This document shows positions 53-19,518 of a stretch of 20,476 nucleotides of DNA, in pieces. The stretch is from a virus. The notes under the pieces were generated by a model. The model searched no databases. It was not told the DNA's origin and saw nothing but the letters and a program-made list of their open reading frames with translations. The stretch is taken from the IMG/VR virus record IMGVR_UViG_3300009156_000463, positions 1-20,476 of that record, one strand, 5' to 3'. Position 1 is the stretch's first letter, and each line of letters opens with the position of its first letter. The translations under genes were made by a program, and so were the position numbers.

Positions 53-1254
53 GGGTTATCCTTCCTTGTTCGCAGTGCAGCGCGAAGAGACATCACCCGC
101 GCCGTTTTCTTGGCGCCGGTCCTGCTGTAGCGCTGCGTCATACTAATATTGCTATGCGCCGCGGCGTGCCGCACGTCCTCCAGCGGAGCCACGTCGGTCG
201 CCTCGGAAATGGCACCGGCCCGGGTATCCATCTGCCATACGTCGTCAGGCACCCCCGCCGCTCGAGCTATCGGCCGCCAACGCTGGGCAAATGTCCGGTA
301 GGGCAGGCCGGTCTTCTCATCGATGATCATGGGGCCGAGCTTCTGTCCCAAATTTGTATACAAATTGGGGACGGCTAATTCTGCAATCACCATGGGCGCC
401 AACTTCAAGTCAACAACGATTTCCTTTTGTTTCTTGCTAGTTACGTGACGCAGGATCAGGTTGGCGTCAATCTCCTCCCACCGTAACCCCCTCATCCATT
501 TCTTGCCGCGGTCGTGGATGGCCGACATGCCCGGCTCGTCCATCGGCGCCCATTCCCCAACGACGTCCTTCTGCCGCAAAGTGCATTCGAATTGCAGTGC
601 CTGGGCCAAGGCAATGGACGGACGCCCGAGCTCGTGGGCCTTGGCGCGGATCGCCACCACCATCTCGGCGGTGAGCACCTTAGTGCGCGGACTGCCAGCG
701 CTAAACTTCATGCCGTTTAAGATAGCCTTGAGCCGGATCGCCTCGGGGTCTTCCAGGTAGGTCGCCCCGTAGCTAATGACGGTCCGCAGCATGGAAATGC
801 ACGAGTGCCCCTCGTGGGTGCGGCCATTGCTCCACTCCCTGTACCAGCCCAAGAAGTTCCGGGCGGTCAGTTTCTCTAGCGGCTCGGCGCCGTGCTCGAG
901 CAACTTGCGGAGCTTGCTAACGTAGTTGTTGCGGGTGTTGTACCTGATCGTCTTGAACGTCGAATCTGGGTCGGCCTGATAGTGTTCGATCAGGCTCTTG
1001 AGGGTGCCGTCAAAGGGTCGGGCCATCGGGCCGCGCCTCCACTCGTGCATTTCGGCTTGGAGCACCTGGCACCAGCTCGCGATATATTCCCGCAACTCTT
1101 GGTCGGGGTCGTCATCCACGACGGACAGCCAGCGATATTGTGGCTTGAACCCGCGCTCCTGTGCCCGCCAGGTGGCGGACCAGAAGCCTTCGGTTTTGCG
1201 GGGAGTAAGGACTAGGCCAGGCGCGTCGTCTATGCGCGGCGGTTGCCGTGTCAT
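49..1254 (-). CDS. int: tyrosine-type site-specific recombinase (phage integrase)
   Basis: This 401-aa protein would catalyse integration and, with an accessory factor, excision of the phage at an att site. Visible catalytic-core residues are Arg227 (in CTLRQKD), Lys274/275 (in VTSKKQK), Arg345 (in MDTRAGA), His367 (in AAHSNI) and the nucleophile Tyr376 (in QRYSR). The family's usual H-x-x-R box reads M342-D-T-R345, so the first His is replaced by Met, a position known to vary. The N-terminal ~190 residues fit an arm/core-binding SAM-like domain. The start ATG 1254 overlaps the stop of the excisionase-like gene by 4 nt (ATGA), so the two are probably co-translated. It is the penultimate visible gene of the leftward operon. 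Family identity is secure; the integration target is unknown. Confidence 0.95.
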   Translation of the reverse strand: MTRQPPRIDDAPGLVLTPRKTEGFWSATWRAQERGFKPQYRWLSVVDDDPDQELREYIASWCQVLQAEMHEWRRGPMARPFDGTLKSLIEHYQADPDSTFKTIRYNTRNNYVSKLRKLLEHGAEPLEKLTARNFLGWYREWSNGRTHEGHSCISMLRTVISYGATYLEDPEAIRLKAILNGMKFSAGSPRTKVLTAEMVVAIRAKAHELGRPSIALAQALQFECTLRQKDVVGEWAPMDEPGMSAIHDRGKKWMRGLRWEEIDANLILRHVTSKKQKEIVVDLKLAPMVIAELAVPNLYTNLGQKLGPMIIDEKTGLPYRTFAQRWRPIARAAGVPDDVWQMDTRAGAISEATDVAPLEDVRHAAAHSNISMTQRYSRTGAKKTARVMSLRAALRTRKDNP

Positions 1255-7469: not shown

Positions 7470-7727
7470 TCAAGGCTTATGACGCCCATGGTTGTGCCAG
7501 CCTCCCGACTTAACGTCGCCCTGATTGGTACTATCACCATGATGACACACAAATGACAAGTAGGTATATGCCCTTACAGCAGGCGCGTTAACCCCATGAA
7601 TCTGTTGTGAATTTCCCCTAAGCTGTTGAGGTGGCATAGGAACTTTTACCACTATAACCAAAGTTATATACAATATGTCGCAGGTTGTGTGTCCCAAATG
7701 AGCAAAAATCTGGCGGAGGAAAGCAAA
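7470..7727 (+). promoter_or_regulatory. non-coding control region before the GapR-like gene
   Basis: 258 nt without a convincing gene. It holds GGTACTATCACC (7527-7538), nearly identical to the operator in the leftward promoter, and a perfect dyad TATAAC-CAAA-GTTATA (7653-7668). It may be the leader of the rightward transcript with its own control sites or a second promoter. No clear -35/-10 pair was found. Confidence 0.4.
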
Positions 7728-7991
7728 ATGAACGACGAACCGGCCCCCATCGGACACAACACGAGCGGCGATCAGCTGAAATCGGTGGTCGACCGCATCG
7801 AGGCGCTCGAGAGCGACAGGGCCGCAATCGCCTCGGATATCAGAGACATATACGCCGAGGCCAAGAGCAGCGGGTTCGACGGCAAGACGCTGCGGACCAT
7901 CATTCGGCTGCGAAAGCAAACCCCCGAGGACCGAAAGGCGCAGGAGGAAATCCTCGCGACATATATGGCCGCGCTCGGGATGCTCGACTGA
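7728..7991 (+). CDS. DUF2312/GapR-like nucleoid-associated protein
   Basis: This 87-aa protein fits the DUF2312 family: an N-terminal tail (PIGHNTSGDQLKSVVDRIEA), a long helix with LESDRAAIASDIRDIYAEAK, then GFDGKTLRTIIRLRKQTPED and a final helix. In Caulobacter, GapR forms a clamp on overtwisted DNA and assists topoisomerases ahead of replication and transcription. Start ATG 7728 has GGAGGAAAG upstream; longer starts lack one. A phage copy beside replication genes suggests a role in handling supercoiling during phage DNA synthesis. The family call is firm, the phage role inferred. Confidence 0.85.
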   Translation: MNDEPAPIGHNTSGDQLKSVVDRIEALESDRAAIASDIRDIYAEAKSSGFDGKTLRTIIRLRKQTPEDRKAQEEILATYMAALGMLD

Positions 7992-8002: not shown

Positions 8003-8593
8003 ATGAAGCTCTGGACCGCGAGCGAAATGGCGTCGGTGCGCAGCCTATATCCCGGTGCGCCATGGATAGGGATACTTCATGCGCTGCCTGGCCGCAATCG
8101 TAATCAGGTCAGGCTGAAGGCTGAACGCATGGGAGTCGTGCGCCGGTCTCATCACGACTGGCTTGGGTCCGAGGTGGTGCTCCTGCGCAAAAAGTACAGT
8201 ACAGACATCGCTACGGACGCTCTCTGCGCCCTGTTTCCGAGGCACTCCGCGGCATCGATCAGACGAAAGGCATACGAGTTTGGCCTGCGTCGAAAAAAGC
8301 AAAAGAAAACACCGCGATATTCCCTGTTGAGGGCATTGCAGGACGAGCGGGAGAGGCTCGGGCTAACTCAACGCGAAATAGCCAGACGAATTCGCTTCCA
8401 ACCTCAGGACTATAACAAGTTCGAGATAGGGACCCGCGTGCCAAGCTTCGAACTTCTTCTGCGATGGGGAAAGGCACTTGGGTTAGAACTGCGGTGGAAA
8501 CCCATAAGGGCCAGTATGCACGAGCGCAATTCCCGTCAGTGGAGCGATCGTTCAGTGCAGCAAACAGTAGGAGTCAACAATGCAGTTCGCTGA
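8003..8593 (+). CDS. multi-domain DNA-binding regulator (two SANT/Myb-like units plus XRE HTH), 196 aa
   Basis: Three apparent DNA-binding units. Residues 3-46 (WTASEMASVRSLYPG, then IGILHALPGRNRNQVRLKAE) and 53-97 (WLGSEVVLLRKKY, then LFPRHSAASIRRKAYEFGL) share the same W-x(n)-R...R-x-KA pattern of SANT/Myb-like helices and look like a duplication. Residues 108-167 are a Cro/CI-type HTH (LLRALQDERERLGLTQREIA, then PQDYNKFEIGTRVPS). Start ATG 8003 lies 12 nt after the GapR-like stop with a weak ribosome site. It probably regulates phage transcription or marks a replication site. It overlaps the DnaA-like gene by 14 nt. Confidence 0.75.
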   Translation: MKLWTASEMASVRSLYPGAPWIGILHALPGRNRNQVRLKAERMGVVRRSHHDWLGSEVVLLRKKYSTDIATDALCALFPRHSAASIRRKAYEFGLRRKKQKKTPRYSLLRALQDERERLGLTQREIARRIRFQPQDYNKFEIGTRVPSFELLLRWGKALGLELRWKPIRASMHERNSRQWSDRSVQQTVGVNNAVR

Positions 8594-9179
8594 TCCCGAG
8601 ACCGCTTATGGCGTACGTAGACTGAAAACGGCCGAAGAGGTGCTGGCGCGTTCGCGGCTTGTCGTGCGGAAGCAAAGGGAACGGGACTTTCTCCAGATTC
8701 GAATTAAACGGGAGGCCAAAAACCGCGCGTGGACCGCTGCCGCTGACGCTGCCGCCAAGGCAGTTCTTTTTGCCGAGATGGAGGAAGCCTGGGAACGGGA
8801 GTTTTCCAACAAACCGCAGGCGGAACTAACAGGCGCGCCGCCCAGGAGGACAGTTCCCGTAACCCCCGCCGACAAAATAATAAACGCCACCTGCCGATAC
8901 TTTCACATAACATGCGACGATATCTTCTCATGCCGGCGCGGCGACAAAATCTCGTATCCGCGACAAATTGCCATGTATTTAGTTAAAGAGGCAACTAAGC
9001 GGACACTCCCGGAGATAGGGCGCAAGTTTAGTCGCGACCATACGACCGTCCTTCATGCAATTAGAAAAATCGGGGGACTGCTTGGGGTGAATGACGAGCC
9101 GACCGTCGCCGACGTCTCGGCGCTGAAAGCCATACTAAAGCACGCTGGCGTGGAATTTAAGCAACCGGGAGAACCATGA
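8580..9179 (+). CDS. DnaA domain-IV (DNA-binding) protein lacking AAA+ domain, 199 aa
   Basis: Residues ~97-165 match the DnaA C-terminal DNA-binding domain: IINATCRYFHITCDDIFS, YPRQIAMYLVKEAT, LPEIGRKFSRDHTTVLHAI. The RDHTTVLHA stretch (152-160) is the DnaA-box-contacting signature. There is no Walker A/B or domain III. The first 90 residues are helical and charged. The start has AGGAG 7 nt upstream. Host DnaA opens oriC with domain III, so this protein could bind DnaA boxes but not unwind by itself. It might compete with host DnaA, or direct it or phage replication proteins to a phage origin. It overlaps the next gene by ATGA. Confidence 0.85.
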   Translation: MQFADPETAYGVRRLKTAEEVLARSRLVVRKQRERDFLQIRIKREAKNRAWTAAADAAAKAVLFAEMEEAWEREFSNKPQAELTGAPPRRTVPVTPADKIINATCRYFHITCDDIFSCRRGDKISYPRQIAMYLVKEATKRTLPEIGRKFSRDHTTVLHAIRKIGGLLGVNDEPTVADVSALKAILKHAGVEFKQPGEP

Positions 9180-9637: not shown

Positions 9638-10636
9638 ATGAGCAACAACCTAATTCGATACGATGCGGCGTGCCGAGCTCTAGCTGAAGCAAAGGCCGTC
9701 GATGAGGCAAAAGACATACGGGACAAAGCGGTCGCTATGGCCGCCTATGCGCGCCAAGCCAAAAACAAAGACCTTGAGGCAGACGCGGTCGAGATCAGAA
9801 TGCGCGCTACGCGCAGGCTCGATCAGTTGCGCCAAGCGCAAAAGGAAACGGTCGGCCTGGCGCCGCCTGGCCCTAAAAAGATCGGGGTATCCAATACCCC
9901 GATCCTAGACGATCGCCCGACGCTCTCCTCACAGGGCATAGATAAGAATCTCGCAAAGCAAGCGAGGGCGCTCGGGTTGCTATCGGACGAGGACTTTGAG
10001 GCTAGCGTTGCTCGTACTAGGGAGGCGGTTCAGCGCACCGTAAAGATTGAATCTGACCGCAGCGAAAGAATTGCCAGACTTGTCGAAATTTCTAAGGGCA
10101 ACTCCGACCTGAATACGTCCATACGGTTTCCTATCATATACGCCGACCCGCCTTGGCAGTACGAAAACCCCCCTATTGGCGCAACAAATAGGGCGATCGA
10201 AAATCATTATCCCACGATGACGCTGGAGGAAATATGCCAAATGCCAGTCTCCGATCTTGCAACAGACGACGCGGTCCTGTTTCTCTGGGCTACGGCACCC
10301 AAGCTTGCCGAATGCATGGAAGTTATTACCGCATGGGGGTTTGTTTATCGTACAAACCTTGTTTGGGACAAAGAACTTATTGGCATGGGTTATCATGCGC
10401 GGAATCAACACGAACTTTTGCTAATTGCGAAGCGCGGGCAGGTTCCGCCCCCGGAGCCAGCCAACCGCCCGCCCTCAGTGCATCGCCAACGACGAGGAGA
10501 GCACAGCGCCAAGCCGGATTATTATTACGAAATGATCGAGCGAGCCTACCCCGCCCTACCCAAAGTAGAACTGTTTTGCAGGGGTAAGGCCAGATCAGGA
10601 TGGGATGCACGGGGCAATCAGGCCGATGTTGCATAG
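9638..10636 (+). CDS. MT-A70 family adenine-N6 DNA methyltransferase
   Basis: The C-terminal half is a complete MT-A70 domain. The catalytic DPPW is at 170-173 (IIYADPPWQYEN), followed by HYPTMTLEEICQMPV, AVLFLWATAPKL, NLVWDKELIGMGYHARNQHE and the final KPDYYYEMIERAYP ... ELFCRG. The N-terminal ~150 residues are helical and probably DNA-binding or regulatory, a common extension in phage homologues. It would transfer a methyl group from S-adenosylmethionine to adenine, possibly protecting phage DNA or timing replication. The target site cannot be read from sequence. All core motifs seem intact, unlike the decayed methyltransferase at 1544-1908. Confidence 0.9.
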   Translation: MSNNLIRYDAACRALAEAKAVDEAKDIRDKAVAMAAYARQAKNKDLEADAVEIRMRATRRLDQLRQAQKETVGLAPPGPKKIGVSNTPILDDRPTLSSQGIDKNLAKQARALGLLSDEDFEASVARTREAVQRTVKIESDRSERIARLVEISKGNSDLNTSIRFPIIYADPPWQYENPPIGATNRAIENHYPTMTLEEICQMPVSDLATDDAVLFLWATAPKLAECMEVITAWGFVYRTNLVWDKELIGMGYHARNQHELLLIAKRGQVPPPEPANRPPSVHRQRRGEHSAKPDYYYEMIERAYPALPKVELFCRGKARSGWDARGNQADVA

Positions 10637-11141
10637 TTTTGCGGAGAGCTTGGCGCGATCGCATCACCAAGCAGACGCGCCATGGTGGATTGAAGTCTAC
10701 AGGCAGGCGTTTCCAAGCCTCGTGTCGGCGGTGTCTGTTCGGGATGACGGCTGGGCGCAGCGGGGAGGCATAGATCGCGTCCTCACTCTCAGTTGCGGCC
10801 GAACTTTAACCATTGACGAAAAGGTAAGGGAAAGGGATTGGGACGACATATTGCTCGAGAGGTGGTCTGATGAGGGCCGCAGAATTCCGGGCTGGGTTCA
10901 AAAACCCTTGGCGTGCGATTTTATCGCCTATGCGTTCATTCCCAGCCAGACCTGCTACCTATTTCCAACGCAAACGTTGCAGCGTGCATGGCGCCTATTC
11001 GGTCAGCAGTGGGTTGAGACGTACCCAGCAAAGAGGGCGCAAAATCGGGGGTATGTAACCGTTTCATGCCCCGTTCCAATCCCCATCCTAAAGTCGGCAA
11101 TTGCCGACGCCATGATCGTCGGGTGGAGCGGCGAGGCGTGA
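10605..11141 (+). CDS. PD-(D/E)XK-like hypothetical protein, 178 aa
   Basis: Asp57 in GGIDRVL followed 14 residues later by D71-E-K73 in LTIDEKVRERDWDD is the spacing of a PD-(D/E)XK nuclease core. The following helix (ILLERWSDEG) and CDFIAYAFIP strand fit the fold. No firm family name is available to me. ATG 10605 overlaps the methyltransferase by 32 nt; ATG 10626 (11-nt overlap) is equally possible. Placed after a methyltransferase it could be a nuclease of a modification-linked system, but a structural or DNA-repair role is also possible. Confidence 0.65.
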   Translation: MHGAIRPMLHSFAESLARSHHQADAPWWIEVYRQAFPSLVSAVSVRDDGWAQRGGIDRVLTLSCGRTLTIDEKVRERDWDDILLERWSDEGRRIPGWVQKPLACDFIAYAFIPSQTCYLFPTQTLQRAWRLFGQQWVETYPAKRAQNRGYVTVSCPVPIPILKSAIADAMIVGWSGEA

Positions 11142-11995
11142 ACGTGAAGCGCCCATTCCTGAAATTCTTTGTTTCGGATTGGCGCGGCGATCCTCGCGTT
11201 AGAATGTGTTCGCTGGCCGCCCGTGGGTTGTGGGCCGATATGCTGGCCATTATGCACGAAAGCGAACCGTATGGCCACCTGACAATCAATGGAAAACCGC
11301 CAAAATTAGAGGAATTGGCGAGGGTAATTGGGTCGTCAAAACGAGAGGTTGAAGACGCCTTCCTCGAGCTAGCAAAACACCAAGTTTTTAGCACGAACAA
11401 CGGGGTCGTTTTCTCCCGTAGGATGGTGAGAGATCACGAGAAATCCCAAAAGGGAGCAGAGGCCGCAGCCAAAGGGTGGGCCAATAGGAAACCCAATGGG
11501 TCACCCAATGGGTCACCCAATGGGTCACCCAATGGGGATGAGCATGGGTCACCCAATACTTATATTCTAGAGTCTAGAGTAGATATAGAATCTAAAGAAG
11601 ATTCTATATCTACGCCCGCACAGGAAAGCGGGAAGCCAAAACGGGGTAGGAAGCCAAGCCCTAAGCAACACCTTCCCCAAGGCTGGATGCTAGACCCAGT
11701 CGACATTGAGCACGCCCGCAAGCATGGCTGGGACGACAACAAAATCGCCACCGAAGAACAGCGCTTTGCAGACTACGCCAAGGCCAATAATTGGCTGAAA
11801 GCCGACTGGCACGCGACCTGGAGGAACTGGGTCACGTCGCCATTTCAACAACAGCGAGCGAAAAATGGGGTTCATAAGGCCCCCGCCGAGAAATTCGGCC
11901 CCCGGCAAGGAATGAGCCCTGACGTGGGCAACGACTATCGCTCGCCCCCGCGGACCAGGCCGCAGAACGAACTCAAGCCACTGCCTGAGAAATGA
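11138..11995 (+). CDS. phage replication (primosome/DUF1376-type) protein carrying origin-like DNA, 285 aa
   Basis: Residues 1-100 match the winged-helix N-domain of phage replication proteins: FLKFFVSDWRGDPRVRMC, SLAARGLWADMLAIMHES, LEELARVIGSSKREVEDAF, then VVFSRRMVRDHE. Residues 119-140 are a (NGSP) repeat linker. The C-terminal part contains FADYAKANNWLKADWHATW, usual for proteins that recruit helicase or loader. By analogy with lambda O or DnaD-type organisers it would bind the phage origin and load host helicase. The start GTG 11138 overlaps the upstream stop (GTGA); GTG 11144 is an alternative. The linker-coding DNA is itself unusual (see the origin candidate). Confidence 0.8.
   Translation: MNVKRPFLKFFVSDWRGDPRVRMCSLAARGLWADMLAIMHESEPYGHLTINGKPPKLEELARVIGSSKREVEDAFLELAKHQVFSTNNGVVFSRRMVRDHEKSQKGAEAAAKGWANRKPNGSPNGSPNGSPNGDEHGSPNTYILESRVDIESKEDSISTPAQESGKPKRGRKPSPKQHLPQGWMLDPVDIEHARKHGWDDNKIATEEQRFADYAKANNWLKADWHATWRNWVTSPFQQQRAKNGVHKAPAEKFGPRQGMSPDVGNDYRSPPRTRPQNELKPLPEK
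11491..11560 (+). repeat. iteron-like 12-bp tandem repeats
   Basis: The unit ACCCAATGGGTC occurs three times exactly (11491-11502, 11503-11514, 11515-11526), then as ACCCAATGGG (11527-11536) and, after a short gap, ATGGGTC-ACCCAATA (11544-11558). Each unit is itself a dyad (ACCCA-A-TGGGT). In protein the repeats give the NGSP linker. Confidence 0.9.
11561..11613. other. candidate phage replication origin: AT-rich segment with perfect inverted repeat
   Basis: Directly after the iterons the base composition drops to strongly AT-rich. It holds a doubled TCTAGAG (11566-11579) and a perfect 14-bp inverted repeat, GTAGATATAGAATC / GATTCTATATCTAC (11579-11592 and 11600-11613), with a 7-nt loop. Three GANTC sites lie at 11570-11574, 11588-11592 and 11600-11604. 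Iterons plus AT-rich DNA inside the initiator gene is the arrangement of the lambda origin in gene O. No DnaA box (TTATCCACA) was seen here. Confidence 0.55.
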
Positions 11996-12672
11996 CCGCC
12001 AGCAGCATGACATACCAAATCGGGCCTATCGCCAACGCCGCCTTACGGTGGTTGCAGCGCAAGATCGGCGGGGAAATTCGGGACGATAAGCTGCACCCGA
12101 TCGGCCCATACCTGACGGCGTTTCGTCCGCTCGAACCGGCCTGCGACCTGCAAAGGCGTTGGCATGTAGTGCAGGTCGAACCCCAGCAGGAGGCCAAGGT
12201 GGCCAATTCCCTGCGCTCCGAGCTGATTGATATCTTCGACCCCAAGGTGCCCAAGCGCATTCGGGTCAACAAGCACAGGCACCGGATCGTGCTGAGGCCG
12301 ATGCTTGTAGGCTACGTGTTCGCGGGGTTCGACGTCGCCGCCGAGGATTGGCGCTGGGGAAAAATCAACGATACCCGCGGCGTCCTGCGATTACTGACCA
12401 TAGGCGAAAGGCCGGTACCTGTACCGGACGCGATAATCAAACATCTGCGGGAAAAGGAGGTAGAGCTCTCGGGTGCTAATTCCCCAAAGGGACCTCCGAT
12501 CACGCTGAAAGTTGGTTCCTACGTTAGAATTCTTGAACCCCTATCCTTTGCCGGATTGTTCGGAAGCGTGGTTTCCGTGAACGATAAGGCTAGGAAAGTC
12601 GGGGTAGAACTGGATCTGTTCGGCAGAATGGTGCCACTGTTGCTAGAACCGGAAATGGTGGAGGCGGTGTGA
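11992..12672 (+). CDS. NusG-like transcription elongation factor (phage paralogue)
   Basis: Residues ~56-155 form a NusG N-terminal domain (RRWHVVQVEPQQEAKVANSL, then LRPMLVGYVFAGFD, VLRLLTIGERPVPVPDAII). Residues ~172-225 are a KOW-type domain (LKVGSYVRILEPLSFAGLFG, then VSVNDKARKVGVELDLFG). NusG-type factors bind RNA polymerase and modulate pausing and termination; specialised paralogues such as RfaH antiterminate particular operons. ATGA overlap with the replication gene. The ~55-residue N-terminal extension is unusual. Located just before the late genes, it is a good candidate for late-operon processive antitermination, although this role is inferred. Confidence 0.85.
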   Translation: MTASSMTYQIGPIANAALRWLQRKIGGEIRDDKLHPIGPYLTAFRPLEPACDLQRRWHVVQVEPQQEAKVANSLRSELIDIFDPKVPKRIRVNKHRHRIVLRPMLVGYVFAGFDVAAEDWRWGKINDTRGVLRLLTIGERPVPVPDAIIKHLREKEVELSGANSPKGPPITLKVGSYVRILEPLSFAGLFGSVVSVNDKARKVGVELDLFGRMVPLLLEPEMVEAV

Positions 12673-17499: not shown

Positions 17500-19518
17500 A
17501 TGATGCATCGGGCATATAGCCTGCTTGATATCAAGCAGGTGAGCGATGAGCAGCGGGTAATTACCGGGATTGCTACCACTCCCGCGCCCGATCGCGTCGG
17601 CGACATCGTTGAGCCGCTCGGCGTCAAGTTCACCAACCCCATGCCGTTACTCTGGCATCACCGCAGCGATATGCCGGTTGGCACCGTCAAGTTTGATAAG
17701 CCGACAAAGGCCGGCATCGGCTTCACGGCCACTATGCCAAAGGTGGCCGAGCCTGGTCCGCTAAAGGACCGCATCGACACCGCATGGGGCGAGGTAAAGC
17801 TCGGGCTAGTGCGCGGCGTGTCGATTGGTTTCCGAGAACTCGAATTCTCGCGCATGGAAGACGGCGGGCTTCGCTTTATCGAAAGCGAGGTGCTGGAACT
17901 TTCGCTTGTTACCATTCCAGCCAATGCCGACGCGAGCATTCAAACCGTTAAGTCGCTCGACGAAAACCTTCGGACCCTGAGCGACAACGAAAGTGACCAC
18001 TCACCGGCAACGCTCCTGAAGGAGCAACGGCCGCCGCGTGTAGTGAAACTAAGCCATCCCGCCGCAGCGGGCTTTCCAAAATCGTGGAAACCCGGAGCGG
18101 TTAACATGAAAACCTATGCAGAGCAGATTACTGCTCTCGAGGCCAAGCGCGCAGCCAGCCAGGCGGCGCAGGAGGCTGTTGCACAGAAGTCGCTTGCCGA
18201 GGACCGCACTATGGATGCGGCCGAGGATGAGCAGTTCGACAACCTGCAATCCGAGCTTGAGGCGATTGACAAGCAGTTGGTCCGCCTGCGTCAACTCGAG
18301 GCCAACCTTGCCAAGACGGCGAAGCCGGTCATCAAGGCCGACGACGCGCAGTCCGCGAGCGAGGCCCGCGGCGGTCACATCGTCGTCAAGACTCCGCCGA
18401 AGCTCGAGCCCGGCATCGGTTATACGCGGCTCGTGAAGGTCAAGATGGCGGCCCGTTTGGCCGGCGAGGCGCCACTCGTCATGGCGCAGCGCATGTATGG
18501 CCCCGACAGCGAGGTCGTCGGGATCATCACCAAGGCCAACGAGGTGGTTGCCGGCACGACGTTGTCCGGTAACTGGGCCTACGACCTGGTCTCGCAGGAG
18601 GGCGCGGCGGTTGCGGCGTTCCTCGAGTATCTGCGCCCGGCCACCATTGTCGGCAAGTTCGGCACGGGTGGCATTCCCGGCCTGCGGCGGCTCGACTTCT
18701 ATACGCCGTATGTCACGCAGACCGGTGGTGGTGACGCCTACTGGGTCGGCGAGGGCAAGCCCAAGCCGCTGACCGCGTTCGACTTCGACCGGTCGACGCT
18801 GACTCCTCTCAAGATCGCAAATATCTGCGTTCTGACCGAGGAGAACATTCGCTACAGTTCGCCGAACAGCGATGCCATCGTTCGCGATGCATTGGTGCAG
18901 GCGATCGTGGCGGGTCTGGATGTCGCGTTCATCGATCCGTCGAACTCGGGCTCGGCGAATGTGAAGCCGGCCTCTATCACCAACGGTGCCGAGACGATCG
19001 TCTCGTCCGGTGACGATGCGGACGATGTCCGCCTCGACCTCCGCGCGCTGTTCGCCAAATTCCATGAGGCGGACAATCCTCCGAGCAATGGCGTGCTGAT
19101 TATGCCGACCAGTGCGGCAATGGCCATTGCGATGATGACGAACGCGTTGGGCCAAAGCGAATTCCCGTCGATGAATATCAATCGGAGTTCGGCGAGCGGG
19201 TCGCTGTTCGGCTTCCCGGTCATCGTCAGCGACCACCTCAGCGATGTCGTGGTTCTGGTCAATGCGTCGGACATCTTCCTCGGCGACGAGGGCGGGGTGT
19301 CCGTCGACATGAGCCGCGAGGCATCGATCGAGATGCGTTCCACCGGCCTCGGCATGGACGCGACGGCTGGCACCGCCACGGCGGCGTCGGTTTCGATGTT
19401 CCAGACCAACAGCGTTGCTCTTAGGGCGGAACGTACGATTTCGTGGAAGCGCGCTCGCGCTTCGGCTGTTGCGTATCTCACGTCGGTTGATTGGGGCGGC
19501 GACGTCCCGACTGCGTAA
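17500..19518 (+). CDS. prohead protease-major capsid protein fusion (HK97-type)
   Basis: A 672-aa fusion. Residues 1-~155 are a phage prohead protease (HK97 gp4/U35 type): His53/54 in LLWHHRSDMPVG, Ser108 in LVRGVSIGF and the VLELSLVTIPANADA strand. Residues ~203-300 form a helical scaffold-like segment (YAEQITALEAKRAASQAAQE, then LQSELEAIDKQLVRLRQLE). Residues ~310-670 are the HK97 capsid fold (FLEYLRPATIVGKFG, then GGDAYWVGEGKPKPLT, ICVLTEENIRYSSPNSD, and the final SVALRAERTISWKRA). The protease normally removes the scaffold segment. ATG 17500 has no good ribosome site. An internal ATG 18106 (residue 203) with GGAG could also give capsid alone. Confidence 0.9.
   Translation: MMHRAYSLLDIKQVSDEQRVITGIATTPAPDRVGDIVEPLGVKFTNPMPLLWHHRSDMPVGTVKFDKPTKAGIGFTATMPKVAEPGPLKDRIDTAWGEVKLGLVRGVSIGFRELEFSRMEDGGLRFIESEVLELSLVTIPANADASIQTVKSLDENLRTLSDNESDHSPATLLKEQRPPRVVKLSHPAAAGFPKSWKPGAVNMKTYAEQITALEAKRAASQAAQEAVAQKSLAEDRTMDAAEDEQFDNLQSELEAIDKQLVRLRQLEANLAKTAKPVIKADDAQSASEARGGHIVVKTPPKLEPGIGYTRLVKVKMAARLAGEAPLVMAQRMYGPDSEVVGIITKANEVVAGTTLSGNWAYDLVSQEGAAVAAFLEYLRPATIVGKFGTGGIPGLRRLDFYTPYVTQTGGGDAYWVGEGKPKPLTAFDFDRSTLTPLKIANICVLTEENIRYSSPNSDAIVRDALVQAIVAGLDVAFIDPSNSGSANVKPASITNGAETIVSSGDDADDVRLDLRALFAKFHEADNPPSNGVLIMPTSAAMAIAMMTNALGQSEFPSMNINRSSASGSLFGFPVIVSDHLSDVVVLVNASDIFLGDEGGVSVDMSREASIEMRSTGLGMDATAGTATAASVSMFQTNSVALRAERTISWKRARASAVAYLTSVDWGGDVPTA
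18094..18108 (+). promoter_or_regulatory. internal ribosome site and start within the capsid fusion
   Basis: GGAG at 18094-18097 sits 8 nt before the in-frame ATG 18106 (MKTYAEQ), exactly at the border between the protease and the scaffold-capsid part. It may allow separate, more abundant synthesis of the 470-aa scaffold-capsid protein alongside the fusion. Confidence 0.5.

Follow-up and report, generated by a model that had tools for sequence, protein, structure and literature searches.

A probable lambda-like replication origin embedded in the initiator gene of a phage contig

Results

A putative initiator gene with repeats in its linker-encoding region

The DNA analyzed here (hereafter, the window) is a viral contig of 20,476 nt (IMG/VR record IMGVR_UViG_3300009156_000463, positions 1–20,476), which encodes a putative replication initiator directly followed by a NusG/RfaH-like antiterminator (Table 1). 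Dyad-symmetric iterons, an AT-rich stretch, and a perfect inverted repeat all lie inside the DNA that encodes the linker of the initiator. Upstream on the same strand, positions 8580–9179 encode a 199-aa protein that consists of DnaA domain IV only (Bac_DnaA_C, E = 7e−27), without the AAA+ ATPase, and that could bind host DnaA boxes or aid initiation. Positions 7626–7991 (+) encode a predicted GapR-like nucleoid-associated protein (NF010247 above the cut-off; resembling Caulobacter GapR), a gene that phages do not usually carry and that points to an alphaproteobacterial host. Elsewhere in the window, a single ORF at 17500–19518 (+) fuses a prohead protease with a major capsid protein, and uninterrupted triplet tracts (GCC ×5.7 and GCA ×9.3) at 1732–1774, in or beside a small ORF, are likely contingency-type or low-complexity sequence.

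Table 1. Positions in the window of the features at the putative origin
Feature	Position	Strand	Remarks
Putative initiator gene	11138–11995	+	GTG start at 11138 or 11144; ~285 residues
Degenerate half-unit	11480–11488		GCCAATAGG; 5' of the array
Whole iteron array, putative initiator sites	11491–11537	+	12-bp dyad units (ACCCAATGGGTC); 3 perfect and 1 near-perfect
Perfect dyads (×3)	11491–11501, 11503–11513, 11515–11525	+	ACCCAATGGGT; read from the sequence
Iteron 4	11527–11537	+	ACCCAATGGGG; one change from ACCCAATGGGT
Degenerate dyad half-unit	11545–11557	+	TGGGTCACCCAAT; read directly
AT-rich stretch, presumed unwinding region	11553–11612	not applicable	26.7% GC
Heptamer repeat	11566–11580	+	TCTAGAG ×2.1; counterpart of the CCAGAAG array of relatives
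GANTC sites (×3)	11570, 11588, 11600 (11570–11604)		Within 35 bp; the last two are in the arms of the inverted repeat
Perfect inverted repeat, putative hairpin/cruciform	11579–11613		Arms 11579–11593 and 11599–11613; loop AAAGA
NusG/RfaH-like antiterminator gene	11992–12672	+	PF02357 (8e−15), phrog_6386 (9e−23); directly 3' of the initiator gene

The top named family for the window protein was phrog_1408, annotated as "replication initiation protein" (E = 3e−6), and phrog_13246 was also matched. A Pfam search returned no family up to E = 10, and hence neither PF07120 (DUF1376) nor the lambda O family. Meanwhile, the protein of Paracoccus phage Pkon1, which shares 24% identity with the window protein (tblastn E = 6e−4), matched PF07120 at 1e−20. 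The AlphaFold2 model was confident at residues ~11–112 and 175–240, and had a pLDDT below 50 in the linker (residues 127–165), which is predicted to be disordered. The N-terminal part was modeled with high confidence as a winged helix (helices between residues 11 and 79, strands 84–86 and 89–91, and a long helix at 93–114), and the C-terminal part as a small helical domain (~186–241). Structure matches in BFVD were DUF1376 phage proteins, with E-values down to 2.5e−8; according to the model, the window protein is DUF1376-like in fold and architecture (winged helix, linker, and small C-terminal domain), an architecture shared by DUF1376/YdaU-type proteins such as those of the Rac prophage (ydaU), Pkon1, and Pseudanabaena phage Pam1. 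No significant sequence match was found between the window protein and any solved structure. In structural comparison of the winged helix with solved structures, 4pql, 4pt7, 4pta, and 5kbj, which we take to be N-terminal domains of RepA_N initiators, were near the top with Z of ~7, no better than the CRP-type winged helices with which they were tied.

The repeats of the window are not a by-product of coding

The original prediction described four to five dyad-symmetric 12-bp repeats, followed by an AT-rich stretch with a 14-bp perfect inverted repeat, all inside the coding sequence of an initiator-like protein and arranged as in the lambda origin in gene O. The repeats are indeed present, as three perfect dyads, one near-perfect dyad, and degenerate half-units on both sides, the whole spanning 11480–11557; Tandem Repeats Finder reported 3.8 copies of a 12-bp unit with 100% matches at 11491–11536. 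The AT-rich stretch also lies where it was predicted, within a gene of 54% GC, and is the lowest-GC 60-bp segment among all 20,476 bases. As for the inverted repeat, its presence was borne out, but its arms are 15 bp long rather than 14, making it the longest perfect close inverted repeat of the window; folded as single-stranded DNA, it has a predicted energy of −11.5 to −11.8 kcal/mol (z = −7). When the initiator gene was shuffled among synonymous codons, none of 2,000 shuffles contained more than two copies of any one perfect-arm 11-mer dyad, compared with four in the real gene, and arms of at least 15 bp were reached in 4 of 2,000. These results indicate that the elements are real and unlikely to have arisen as a by-product of the coding sequence. 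An origin based on DnaA boxes was also considered and rejected: the 16 near-matches in the window compare with 17.2 by chance, and none lies within the origin (the nearest, at 11250, has one mismatch).

Relatives share the order and place of the elements

Relatives of the initiator gene were collected from phages, viral contigs, and genome contigs by tblastn and profile scans; the survey comprised ~170–220 non-redundant relatives overall, and the main set contained 168 non-redundant sequences including the window. With the window protein as a single query, a scan of viral contigs yielded no relative, nor did one of plasmids. The linkers of the relatives have a common three-part order of dyad iterons, CCAGAAG-type heptamers, and a hairpin that usually has a C(TNNC)G loop, and this lambda-like arrangement recurs in dozens of related phages. 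Palindromes peak at 360–420 nt of the gene (112 observed versus 25 expected from synonymous shuffles); dyads are most frequent 15–60 nt 5' of the first heptamer, and hairpins 0–30 nt 3' of the last. For example, the linkers of Pkon1 and Pam1 contain dyads, CCAGAAG heptamers, and a hairpin in a window-like order. The lambda-like arrangement that had been predicted for the window is therefore well supported, as dyads, AT- or purine-rich repeats, and an inverted repeat follow one another at the same place in many relatives of divergent sequence.

The dyads themselves vary among the relatives. One phage contig (L456) has iterons identical to those of the window at the same place, whereas ACCTAATAGGT units occupy the corresponding place in L003, L005, L067, Pam1, and several contigs, and GGGTTAACCC-type dyads are found in another large group of relatives. 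Between the window and the ACCTAATAGGT units, CCC/GGG is replaced by CCT/AGG, in both arms together, only one of the two changes being synonymous. Two of the window's dyads also occur at ~856–877 (minus strand) of another contig (L455) with no recognized initiator frame around them, possibly an origin remnant or a recombination junction.

Tandem heptamers, typically CCAGAAG, follow the dyads on the 3' side in most relatives, and CCAGANN heptamers were found in 93 of the 168. Because the period is seven, the copies fall into each of the three reading phases, and QKPEARS is simply the peptide that results from translating them. When viral contigs were scanned blindly at the DNA level with CCAGAAGCCAGAAGCCAGA, the matches were mostly DUF1376-like initiator genes with heptamers in the linker.

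Hairpins are conserved in structure rather than in sequence

Hairpins with arms of at least 7 bp were found within 75 nt 3' of the heptamers in 56 of 158 heptamer-bearing relatives, versus 8 expected, and about half of the heptamer-bearing relatives had no hairpin of at least 6 bp after the heptamers. At 420–450 nt of the gene, 29 hairpins were observed against 3.4 expected from synonymous shuffles. The linkers contained 40 hairpins with a C(TNNC)G loop (2.0 expected), 39 of which share one codon phase, and the commonest loop was C(TAAC)G. The hairpin of the window is atypical among these, having 15-bp arms, a 5-nt loop (AAAGA), and another codon phase.

We then used all 27 in-phase CTAACG sites of the linkers as seeds, so that the sites were not selected for complementarity. 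Watson–Crick pairing was found in 25–26 of the 27 at pairs 2–6, in 20 at pair 7, and in 11 at pair 8, and fell to background from pair 9 onward. Pairs 2–6 include all four pair types, and G·T was seen once and A·C twice among the 162 stem cells. Furthermore, a close pair of relatives (L003 and L004) differs by a compensatory double change, CAATTAC-TAAC-GTAATTG versus CACTTAC-TAAC-GTAAGTG, and L456, despite its identical iterons, has at the corresponding place a 9-bp hairpin unrelated to that of the window, suggesting that the arm sequence is free to change. Since the arms vary while Watson–Crick pairing is strict and wobble pairs are almost lacking, a DNA hairpin or cruciform is a better fit than an RNA structure. 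On the bottom strand, the loops read GTTA, CTTG, and TTTA and would match types known to form stable DNA hairpins.

GANTC sites and CcrM methylation

The original prediction further noted three GANTC sites within 35 bp, two of them in the inverted repeat, and proposed that CcrM methylation of this cluster could tie origin firing to the host cell cycle. The three sites are present as described (Table 1). Two of them are not independent, because both are arms of one inverted repeat, and for 38 sites placed at random, a cluster of three within 35 bp anywhere along the contig has a p of ~0.05. A comparison of GANTC density, which had been suggested as a check, gave a divided answer: the contig as a whole is depleted (38 sites versus 84 expected), yet the sites cluster at the origin, and in the 40 relatives from alphaproteobacterial genomes, the origin zones are 4–6 times denser in GANTC than either the flanks or the remainder of the gene. 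These 40 zones contain 36 sites, whereas the density in the remainder of the gene predicts ~6, and control palindromic motifs show no such excess. The alphaproteobacterial context indicated by the GapR-like gene also favors a role for CcrM, and the origins of repABC replicons, which have been described as GANTC-rich, make methylation plausible (PMC11514494, PMC6090056).

Nevertheless, 13 of the 36 sites come from two loci, and the alphaproteobacterial loci whose origin zone contains any GANTC (16 of 40) are as many as synonymous shuffles predict (16.2), leaving 24 of the 40 zones free of GANTC. Across all relatives, origin zones are no richer in GANTC than synonymous shuffles. Among 79 hairpins of relatives with arms of at least 7 bp, that of the window is the only one containing GANTC, and GANTC-making variants account for 31 of 107 non-consensus heptamers, about the expectation for four equal last bases and thus no sign of preference. 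Moreover, RepC reportedly binds its GANTC-containing origin irrespective of methylation (PMC6090056). The proposal of CcrM gating consequently fared poorly, and we consider it an unlikely addition to the origin reading; the excess in alphaproteobacterial origin zones makes a role for methylation possible in a subset. Over the sequences compared, GANTC is not a general feature of these putative origins.

The linkers of three relatives (L138, L155, and L032) contain 5–8 GANTC per origin zone, arising from CAGAATC/CCAGAGTC variants of the repeats. In the window, positions 9638–10636 (+) encode a predicted MT-A70-type adenine methyltransferase, the target of which would bear on methylation of the origin.

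Discussion

Comparison with known intragenic origins

The origin of phage lambda lies inside the initiator gene O (PMC5043065). As published, it consists of iterons and a 38–40-bp AT-rich stretch within that gene, and in the lambda record we found iterons, an A-rich stretch, and then an inverted repeat, GTCAGAGAATTC-TGGC-GAATCCTCTGAC, the loop of which belongs to the C(TNNC)G class and shares its codon phase with the loops in relatives of the window gene. The window resembles lambda in having dyad iterons midway through the initiator gene, an adjacent AT-rich stretch, and a distal inverted repeat. It differs in that the initiator belongs to another family by sequence, the iterons are 12 bp rather than 18–19 bp, the inverted repeat has 15-bp perfect arms with a 5-nt loop, the gene that follows the initiator is NusG-like, and no lambda P homologue was identified in the contig. 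The putative origin of the window is thus lambda-like in its predicted working but outside the O protein family. Among the window genes that were scanned, neither a helicase nor a helicase loader turned up, the contig being partial; in Pam1 and Pkon1, a helicase gene adjoins the initiator gene.

Within the lambda O family, the lambda-type inverted repeat is patchy, and several members have iteron dyads only, while P22 and PSA04 have hairpins with other loops at a similar place. A viral scan with lambda O returned near-identical copies only. The published minimal lambda origin spans 39034–39160, with its right border (39160) just 5' of the inverted repeat, so the inverted repeat may be dispensable in lambda; we found no statement on its function in open papers. 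In the ydaU gene of the Rac prophage, dyad-like repeats are accompanied by an A-rich stretch, but a clear C(TNNC)G hairpin is absent.

Other replicons also place the origin inside the initiator gene. The oriV of alphaproteobacterial repABC plasmids lies within the coding sequence of repC and, like the putative origin of the window, includes an AT-rich stretch, which is essential there; unlike the window, repC of p42d showed no direct repeats (PMC3155836), and its initiator comes from another family. In the RepA_N plasmid pSK41, the Rep boxes are central in rep, and the linker that joins the N-terminal DNA-binding domain to the C-terminal domain is encoded by the origin DNA (PMC5703833). The putative origin of the window joins this known class of origins inside initiator genes, exemplified by lambda, pSK41 rep, and repC.

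Proposed mechanism and alternative explanations

We conclude that the window very probably contains a lambda-like phage replication origin embedded in its own initiator gene. The comparison with relatives, whose hairpin arms vary yet stay complementary, and with lambda, whose origin has the same parts, speaks for this reading. In the mechanism that we propose, the N-terminal winged-helix domain would bind the dyad iterons (11491–11537) as dimers, and the bound array would strain and open the adjacent AT-rich heptamer stretch (11553–11580). At the border of this opened region, the palindrome (11579–11613) would then extrude as a DNA hairpin or fold into one on the exposed strand. This hairpin may mark the helicase entry site or hold it open, with the C-terminal domain helping in loading and replication initiating at this site. 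That the origin DNA encodes a disordered linker may explain how the gene tolerates it.

Initiator-bound dyad arrays often double as control sites, and the dyads could accordingly be operators for autoregulation, copy control, or incompatibility-like titration, with the true origin elsewhere. We regard this as improbable, since the array lies in mid-gene rather than at a promoter and, across the relatives, keeps a fixed order with the AT-rich minimum, the heptamers, and the hairpin. A slightly weaker candidate is an RNA element of the transcript, whether nut-like, an attenuator, or a translational element, that is read by the neighboring NusG-like protein. The NusG/RfaH-like gene beginning at 11992 is in its favor, and UAAC-type loops are known in RNA too, as in phi21 boxB. 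Against it, the tolerance of wobble pairs expected of RNA is missing on either strand, no Rfam match was found, and the placement of the hairpin is fixed beside the iterons and heptamers; in addition, neither the Pam1 record nor a contig (L022) contains a member of the NusG family, although both have the hairpin element. A tRNA search of the window element was also negative. Finally, although tandem duplication could explain identical repeats and linkers evolve freely, a merely low-complexity coding linker, made by tandem duplication of NGSP codons plus a chance inverted repeat, is very improbable given that dyad symmetry is kept when both arms change (CCCAATGGG versus CCTAATAGG), that the heptamers are translated in three phases, and that covarying hairpins far exceed the expectation from synonymous shuffles.

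Implications for the family

Searches of the open-access literature found no report in which dyads, heptamers, and a C(TNNC)G DNA hairpin with variable arms occur together, the papers retrieved for DUF1376 did not mention that family, and the heptamer and peptide strings did not occur in open papers; absence there is no proof of novelty. The variable-arm hairpin common to the family appears to be new.

Returning to the lambda-like origin, we tentatively extend it to a broader hypothesis, which we hold at somewhat less than an even chance. In many phage initiator families, including that of lambda O, the intragenic origin may end in a single-stranded or cruciform DNA hairpin with a conserved loop class, stem length (~7 bp), and position but free arms. 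Such a hairpin would act as a signal through its structure, independently of sequence, and would probably serve the assembly of a helicase or primase on the opened strand, and the CCAGAAG heptamers would be a shared unwinding or single-stranded DNA-binding element.

If this is true, the initiator gene would reveal the replication origin directly in uncultured temperate phages that make up a very large class. What the lambda inverted repeat does would likewise become open to a comparative test, with dozens of natural hairpins in which the arms differ while the loop, length, and place are common, a pattern that points to the structure rather than the sequence as the signal. It would also provide a rule for building minimal plasmids of such phages in harmless laboratory strains of alphaproteobacteria.
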